The translations under genes and the position numbers were made by a program. Below, in pieces: positions 32,939 through 35,546 of a stretch of 64,000 nucleotides of DNA. This stretch comes from Microbacterium sp. (lineage in GTDB: Bacteria; Actinomycetota; Actinomycetes; Actinomycetales; Microbacteriaceae). The stretch covers positions 62,001 to 126,000 of the forward strand of contig NZ_JAPSIY010000005.1 in assembly GCF_031178445.1 (NCBI RefSeq), given 5' to 3'. Within the stretch, counting starts at the first letter, position 1. Each line of letters opens with the position of its first letter. The notes below the pieces were generated by a model. It did not search any database. It had not been told where the DNA came from and worked only from the letters and a program-made list of their open reading frames with translations.

Positions 32939-34726
<1,788 letters not shown>

Positions 34727-34742
34727 TCAGGCCAACACGAGC

Positions 34743-34783
34743 GCCGCGACGAGAGAGGCCCGAAGATCAGGACTCGTCGCGGC
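34743..34783 (-). promoter_or_regulatory. leuA leader stem-loop (attenuator candidate)
   Basis: Perfect 11-bp inverted repeat, arms CTCGTCGCGGC and GCCGCGACGAG, loop 19 nt. The first arm on the transcript covers the last codons of the leader peptide, so a ribosome at the leucine codons or the stop would change folding. Confidence 0.65.
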
Positions 34784-34814
34784 AGCTAAGAAGAAGCAGT
34801 CCGCCCAGAGGCAT
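34767..34814 (-). CDS. leuA leader peptide, leucine-rich
   Basis: A 15-residue open frame, MPLGGLLLLSCRDES, absent from the ORF track. Five of 15 residues are Leu, four of them consecutive (CTG CTT CTT CTT). The CTT codons are uncommon in this GC-rich genome, which could make it a sensitive leucyl-tRNA sensor. ATG at 34814 lies exactly 6 nt after TACGAT, so the transcript likely begins at this start codon. leuA follows 73 nt after the stop. Leucine attenuators at leuA have been predicted in actinobacteria; this one fits that pattern. Confidence 0.8.
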   Translation of the reverse strand: MPLGGLLLLSCRDES

Positions 34815-34820
34815 GGGTCG

Positions 34821-34826
34821 ATCGTA
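34821..34826 (-). promoter_or_regulatory. -10 box of the leuA leader, leaderless leader peptide
   Basis: TACGAT on the minus strand with 6 nt to the leader peptide ATG at 34814. Confidence 0.55.
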
Positions 34827-34892
34827 ACAGCATCCCCGGCCTGCTCGCACGACGACGGTGAGACGATCCGCTCACGGCTGACACTAGAGATC

Positions 34893-35546
34893 ATGAGCAC
34901 AACGCCCAGAACCCCGGCGCTCGCCGGCATCGCCCTTGTCGGAATGCTCAGTCTGAGCGCGTGCGCCGGCTCCCCCGGTTCGCGCCCTCCGGCTGACGGC
35001 GCGTCTTCAGAACCGGCACTCGCGACCGCCGTGCCAGCGCCGCCTTCCGGGGAGGTGATCGGAACCGGCACGGTGATGGACATCGGCGGGTCCGTCGAGC
35101 TCTGCCTCGGCGCGGTCGCCGAGTCGTATCCCCCGCAGTGCGCGGGCGTGCCGATGACGGGCTGGACGTGGGACGGAGTCGAGGGGGCCGAGCGGAGCGG
35201 TGAGGTGAGCTGGGGCGCCTACGCGGTGACCGGCCGCTACGACGGCGAGACGTTCACTCTGACCGGGCAGCCGATGCTGCTCGCCCTGTACGATCCGATG
35301 GCTCCGGAGGATCCCACCGGGGGCGGCACGGGCGACACGGCCGAACCGCGGCTGATCGAGATCCAGGACCAGCTTCCCGAGCTGCTCGGCGATGACGGCG
35401 CAAGCTACCTGGGCTCGTTCCCTGACCGCGGCTACCTGTGGGTGGACATGGTGTGGGATGACGGCACGCTGCAGGACGCCGCGGACGAGGACTTCGGCGA
35501 TGACGTCGTGGTCATCCGCTCGGCGTTGCGGCCGGTCGAGGGCTGA
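34893..35546 (+). CDS. Hypothetical lipoprotein
   Basis: A 217-residue secreted lipoprotein I do not recognise. The signal peptide ends in LSAC with C24 as the lipid anchor, followed by a Pro/Ser/Ala-rich linker to about residue 50. The mature part contains VELCLGAVAESYPPQCAG (two Cys), then several Trp and an acidic C terminus. ATG at 34893 gives the proper signal peptide; the longer track ORF crosses leuA. It is convergent with the quinone oxidoreductase gene, with a 5-bp gap. Confidence 0.75.
   Translation: MSTTPRTPALAGIALVGMLSLSACAGSPGSRPPADGASSEPALATAVPAPPSGEVIGTGTVMDIGGSVELCLGAVAESYPPQCAGVPMTGWTWDGVEGAERSGEVSWGAYAVTGRYDGETFTLTGQPMLLALYDPMAPEDPTGGGTGDTAEPRLIEIQDQLPELLGDDGASYLGSFPDRGYLWVDMVWDDGTLQDAADEDFGDDVVVIRSALRPVEG

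Follow-up and report, generated by a model that had tools for sequence, protein, structure and literature searches.

The leuA gene of this Microbacterium sp. is preceded by a short leucine-rich reading frame which, with the RNA around it, is almost certainly a member of the LEU element described upstream of actinobacterial leuA by Seliverstov et al. in 2005 (PMC1262725). In the explanation that we favour, with a probability of roughly two in three, the leader is a leaderless, leucine-sensing frame whose RNA folds over the ribosome-binding site of leuA. The helices of this RNA are supported by comparative data, and from the sequences we infer the stalling of ribosomes and the switch that it would operate. 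The leader is beyond chance, is ordinary in kind for Actinomycetes and, to judge from its sequence, is in all likelihood functional. Positions (Table 1) are those of the window, the whole stretch of 64,000 nucleotides that was analysed.

The leader frame and its predicted promoter

On the minus strand, the leader runs from an ATG at 34814-34812 to a TGA at 34769-34767 and encodes a leucine-rich peptide of 15 residues. The start codon of leuA is at 34693, and the whole feature reaches past 34743 to include the Shine-Dalgarno sequence and the start codon of that gene (34709-34691). In the public set, the nearest LeuA proteins come from Microbacterium, with identities of at most 92%. The initial annotation had described a frame with four Leu codons, three of them CTT, a TACGAT box at a distance of 6 nt from the ATG and a stem of 11 bp starting over the last codons of the leader. 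All of these are found in the sequence, the spacer between box and ATG being CGACCC. The rarity of CTT is equally real: it accounts for 7 of 152 Leu codons in four genes nearby and, in the leuA bodies of relatives, for 70 of 2854 (2.5%, compared with 54% for CTG). A divergent ORF for a probable lipoprotein (MSTTPRTPALAGIALVGMLSLSACAGS..., 34893-35546, plus strand), to which NCBIfam gave no match, starts 67 nt from the predicted -10 box of the leader.

Table 1. Positions in the window, or loci in other genomes, of the features discussed
Feature	Position or loci	Strand	Remarks
Regulated gene leuA, for 2-isopropylmalate synthase (584 aa)	32939..34693	-	NCBIfam TIGR00970, E 3.5e-257, above the curated cut-off
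Leader ORF MPLGGLLLLSCRDES, including TGA	34767..34814	-	No Shine-Dalgarno sequence in front; transcription predicted to begin at the ATG
Predicted -10 box, TACGAT, extended by a TG that lies one base 5' of it	34821..34826	-	Inferred promoter, conserved spacing
Leu run CTG CTT CTT CTT, putative sensor codons	34788..34799	-	Last codon CTT in 110/110 relatives
P1 5' strand TGCTTCTT, inside the Leu run	34791..34798	-	Pairs with the leuA Shine-Dalgarno region
P1 3' strand GAGAAGCA, part of the Shine-Dalgarno region of leuA (GAAGAGAAG)	34702..34709	-	Recurs at leuA of other families
P2 5' strand GCCGCGACGAG	34773..34783	-	Compensatory changes, swap test
P2 3' strand CTCGTCGCGGC	34743..34753	-	Compensatory changes, swap test
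Pseudoknot strand TTCGGGCC, in the P2 loop	34757..34764	-	Covaries between families
Pseudoknot partner strand GGCCTGAG	34726..34733	-	Covaries between families
LEU-like elements 5' of leuB, mixed Val/Ile/Leu runs	L148, L149, L150, L217, L220, L222, L224, L226, L228		
Further LEU-like elements 5' of leuB, mixed runs	L229, L231, L235, L241, L243, L250-L252		
Small ORF of the ALDRRDNGGETGH type	L217, L220, L222, L226, L229, L241, L243, L148, L150, L251; also L258-L266		
Small ORF ending in PDDN or EDN	L149, L224, L228, L231, L235, L250, L252		

The comparison set consists of the 110 Microbacteriaceae leuA loci that gave an anchor, 85 of which are non-redundant. A homologous short frame, typically [MV]xxG-LLLL-SCRDES, precedes leuA in all 110. 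A plain search for LLL misses two loci only, L048 (LLIL) and L071 (RLLR), both of which are visibly homologous. The stop codon follows the Leu run by 6-8 codons in nearly all loci. The frame, the Leu run, the -10 box and the stem are kept in the upstream regions of the relatives. A short frame or Leu run not conserved in relatives, which by the initial annotation would have refuted the leader, is clearly not what the comparison gives.

The box and its spacing are conserved as well. TANNNT is found 6-9 nt upstream of an in-frame ATG or GTG in each of the 85 non-redundant loci, and at 6 or 7 nt in 83 of them; the background rate at 6 or 7 nt from other upstream positions is 0.2%. The extended -10 motif TGN occurs in 72 of the 85 loci, and a Shine-Dalgarno sequence before the leader start in none. 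By sequence, a start is taken as leaderless when a -10 box lies 5-7 nt upstream of the start codon and no Shine-Dalgarno sequence precedes it, and the leuA leader has this arrangement. Transcription in this Microbacterium sp. very probably begins leaderless at the leader ATG, and the initial annotation, which had suggested as much, stands as a prediction on the conserved spacing and the missing Shine-Dalgarno sequence.

A covariance model of the element core finds matches in 144 of 150 Microbacteriaceae genomes. When the model search is set against a search for leuA, each of the 143 genomes of the family in which leuA is matched carries one element or more, and a broader model finds the element in 129 of 149 genomes of the order and 136 of 148 of the class. 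Such an element, known since 2005 (PMC1262725), is not unusual; the initial annotation had called it an "unusually compact attenuator". Weak model matches at L238, L239, L240, L245, L248 and L249, where there is no clear leader with a leu gene, were discarded as false positives. LEU elements also lie 5' of leuA at L232, L233 and L234, in genomes that carry two or more elements or a divergent copy of LeuA; the divergent copies are 54-68% identical to LeuA of the window, which suggests that leuA paralogues can keep the element. A search of Rfam, covering the leu leader and all other families, gave no match to the leader region.

Helices between the Leu run and the leuA ribosome-binding site

Between the leader ATG and the start of leuA, the RNA folds better than 200 of 200 dinucleotide shuffles (z -3.4). 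The P2 stem has compensatory changes at several pairs and the strongest signal when strands are swapped between loci (z about -11, in a test which ignores kinship), and the comparative alignment bears out the expectation of conserved Leu codons with a stem that partly covaries. A strand in the P2 loop forms a pseudoknot, of 8 bp in the window, with a strand downstream of P2. In Microbacteriaceae the strands are GGCC with GGCT or GGCC; elsewhere they are, for example, GACCGGC with GCCGGTC. The swap test, which again ignores kinship, gives z -5.9 for 83 elements, -4.4 outside Microbacteriaceae and about -2 within the family, where the strands vary little. An alternative hairpin of UUAGCU with GGCUGA, one candidate for the alternative internal hairpin in Figure 6 of the 2005 paper, has weak support (z -1.9) and is lost in Microbacterium species with GGCCC; the pseudoknot is better supported.

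The base stem, P1, pairs the Leu run with the Shine-Dalgarno region of leuA, and its duplex in the window has an energy of -10.6 kcal/mol. For Microbacteriaceae leuA, cognate strands reach -9.76 as against -8.89 for swapped strands (0/10000, kinship being ignored), -7.09 for shuffled ones and -8.33 when the Leu codons are recoded synonymously. At leuA of other families the value is -8.92, as against -8.11 for swapped (p 0.005, kinship again ignored) and -6.81 for shuffled strands. At leuC elements it is -8.18 as against -5.87 for shuffled strands, and swapping within the leuC elements gives no significant difference (p 0.11 and 0.44). P1 is unsupported at leuB-type elements (swap test, p 0.52). 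RNAalifold recovers P2 and not P1; the spacing between P1 and P2 varies.

The codons of the run are constrained as well. The last is always CTT in the 110 loci, and the third is CTT or CTC in 109 of them, ATT in one and CTG in none. Pairing with the purine-rich Shine-Dalgarno sequence would require such a bias at the end of the run, which could instead reflect dependence on a single tRNA-Leu isoacceptor. Since the run, mostly CTT or CTC, is complementary to the Shine-Dalgarno region of leuA, its codons would serve both to sense leucine and to mask leuA. That they are both sensor and mask of a translational switch we consider probable.

The switch would work in the following way. Transcription would start at the leader ATG or right beside it, with ribosomes loading on the bare 5' end, as the conserved -10 spacing and the reported leaderless transcription of the Streptomyces lividans homologue suggest. 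When Leu-tRNA is plentiful, the ribosome would pass the Leu codons and come off at the stop codon, which lies in the P2 loop. P2, the pseudoknot and P1 would then close, the Leu codons would pair with the Shine-Dalgarno sequence, and leuA would be translated at a low level. When Leu-tRNA is scarce, the ribosome would stall on the run and occupy the masking strand, and leuA would be translated. In a folding test which does not include the pseudoknot, masking the footprint of the stalled ribosome raises the openness of the Shine-Dalgarno sequence in 64 of 85 loci. The effect in this test is modest (mean openness rises from 0.29 to 0.41 over the 85 loci and from 0.13 to 0.39 in the window) and exceeds the gain from a ribosome at the stop codon.

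In a variant of the switch for Microbacteriaceae leuA, the Shine-Dalgarno region (GACGAAGAG) would be masked not by the Leu run alone but also by the 3' strand of P2 (CTCGTCGCGG) once a ribosome has opened P2. That pairing reaches -10.8 as against -7.6 for shuffled strands and beats swapped strands (2/10000, kinship being ignored), and loci whose P2 contains CAGCGAG have AGCGAG near the Shine-Dalgarno sequence. Neither the leuC elements nor the leuA elements of other families have it, however, so that it is at best a local addition; as an account of the element the variant is very improbable. The Shine-Dalgarno region of leuA contains a second copy of part of the P2 5' strand (GACGA, CGACGAG or CGCGA), seen at leuA of Microbacteriaceae only, and the P2 3' strand could pair with this copy too. 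In the window the repeat is at 34707-34715, with a GACGA motif near 34715-34711.

The presence of both a leader peptide and a stem would also suit classical transcription attenuation, and in Mycobacterium tuberculosis the short leader RNAs found for leuA, which are 85, 65 and 45 nt long, have been interpreted in this way (PMC3526491). Untranslated leader RNA could, moreover, expose Rho sites, so that the position of the ribosome on the Leu codons might set either attenuation or Rho-dependent termination within the leader. We regard such control as unlikely. No terminator-like site was found in 34600-34920, there is no T run behind the stem, leuA of S. lividans is likewise reported to have no terminator (PMC8079986), and the conserved pairing extends to the leuA ribosome-binding site. 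Because the element covers that site and no terminator was found, translational control is favoured over transcriptional control. The attenuator of the initial annotation is not supported as a classical transcription attenuator; from the conserved architecture, the Leu codons would rather act as a mask over the ribosome-binding site of leuA.

Further elements upstream of leuC and leuB

A second LEU element of the same genome lies outside the window, directly 5' of leuC (G000:C16:104104-104187; L142 2605-2688). Its leader, VQQVVLLLSSRGETSI, is leaderless by sequence, with TAAGCT 6 nt before its GTG. By a count of the model-search table, about 100 of the 144 Microbacteriaceae genomes carry at least two elements, and all 37 second copies fetched from other genomes of the family (L157-L193) adjoin leuC. 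In the window's own genome, leuB lacks a LEU element. Outside Microbacteriaceae, extra copies lie 5' of leuB, with runs such as VLIL, IFVL, FVLI, LVVI and LVIL. At run positions 2-4, Leu accounts for 173 of 177 residues at leuA and 108 of 108 at leuC, and at leuB (n = 54) there are 20 Leu, 15 Ile, 14 Val, 3 Phe and 2 Arg. At L148, leuB is followed by ilvE, the product of which is used for all three branched-chain amino acids.

At some of these loci (Table 1), the leader element is separated from leuB by a small conserved ORF of about 20-50 residues with a Shine-Dalgarno sequence and an end like ALDRRDNGGETGH, to which neither Pfam nor NCBIfam gave a match. The leuB-type element may act on it directly. 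The loci L258-L266 that have it include large genomes of 7-10 Mb, and at L264-L266 it stands before leuB with no LEU element in evidence. Other families have in this place before leuB a small ORF that is either different or diverged and has PDDN or EDN at its end (for example MNTYPIEWGPAHLRDDAVTPAVEPAERPDDN).

These copies bear on the suggestion of Seliverstov et al. In PMC1262725, mutations of the Leu codons of S. coelicolor leuA are described as having an effect inconsistent with classical attenuation, the conclusion being that they do not influence regulation, and on account of this little or inconsistent effect a protein, the ML1624 orthologues, was preferred. The RNA element would then be the binding site of a regulatory protein and the leader peptide incidental or secondary. 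Phylogenetic co-occurrence and the weak effect of the mutations, both reported in PMC1262725, and the extreme conservation of the P2 hairpin in both sequence and structure are in keeping with such a site, although the sequence conservation of P2 comes partly from its coding for SCRDE. A binding site leaves unexplained, however, why a run of Leu at leuA and leuC gives way to one of Val, Ile and Leu at leuB, and why reading frame, start codon, stop codon and -10 spacing are conserved, and we judge it decidedly unlikely. The identity of the codons follows the pathway, which argues for sensing by the ribosome and against the binding protein. If the Leu codons are the mask as well, the S. coelicolor mutations would remove sensor and repressor together and would for that reason look paradoxical.

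Taken further, the LEU element would be a reusable leaderless translational switch operated by ribosome stalling and placed before leuA, before leuC and before the leuB-ilvE region, where a microprotein gene comes first. Its run would be rewritten to the amino acids of each gene and would serve at leuA and leuC as the anti-Shine-Dalgarno strand. On this generalization we are evenly divided. If true, it would settle the mechanism of the LEU element in favour of ribosome sensing. The leuA and leuC elements of one genome, together with the Val/Ile/Leu version at leuB of relatives, amount to a natural codon-swap experiment, and the codon swap at leuB makes the old question of the mechanism testable. 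If confirmed, one short sequence would be start site, amino-acid sensor and mask of a ribosome-binding site at once, and the result would aid the understanding and engineering of leucine production in Actinobacteria.

Relation to known systems

The leuL leader of Proteobacteria is, like the leuA leader, a leucine-rich peptide encoded before genes of leucine synthesis, namely the leucine operon. Unlike the leuA leader, it is led by a Shine-Dalgarno sequence and works by terminator-based attenuation. Closer in their way of working are the polycysteine ORFs of M. smegmatis, leaderless ORFs with a run of one amino acid which attenuate downstream genes according to its supply (Canestrari et al. 2020, as cited in PMC9031893); they concern another amino acid and another operon and are not homologous.

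Leader peptides of leuA have been described in Corynebacterium (PMC4046766; MNRANLLLLRRGGSQA in PMC5784534) and in Mycobacterium, namely in M. tuberculosis (PMC3526491) and M. abscessus (PMC4974804). They have in common with the present leader an ORF with a Leu run upstream of leuA, and the ends of the peptides differ. For the C. diphtheriae leader no transcription start could be assigned. The S. lividans leader leuL1, MRFGLLLLSCRGEGL, also upstream of leuA, is reported to be transcribed leaderless and to have no typical terminator (PMC8079986), and its peptide core, LLLLSCR, is nearly identical. It has been called an attenuator without a worked-out mechanism (PMC8079986), and the Microbacteriaceae leader, for its part, is leaderless by prediction.

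Among the open papers searched, none later than 2005 was found which settles the mechanism of the LEU element. The leuC copy, the codon-swapped leuB copies and the strength of the pseudoknot covariation were not found in them either, and priority cannot be claimed. The text of PMC1262725 mentions neither leuB nor leuD nor leuCD, and the matches to leuC seen in it are the word leucine. The element described there has an upstream ORF with a Leu run, a base stem between the Leu run and the Shine-Dalgarno sequence, a pseudoknot and no terminator, all of which are found here. The present element differs in that it is predicted to be leaderless, has a leuC copy in the same genome and has a codon-swapped leuB form in relatives. 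The two studies also differ in what they favour: a binding protein in PMC1262725, and sensing by the ribosome here.
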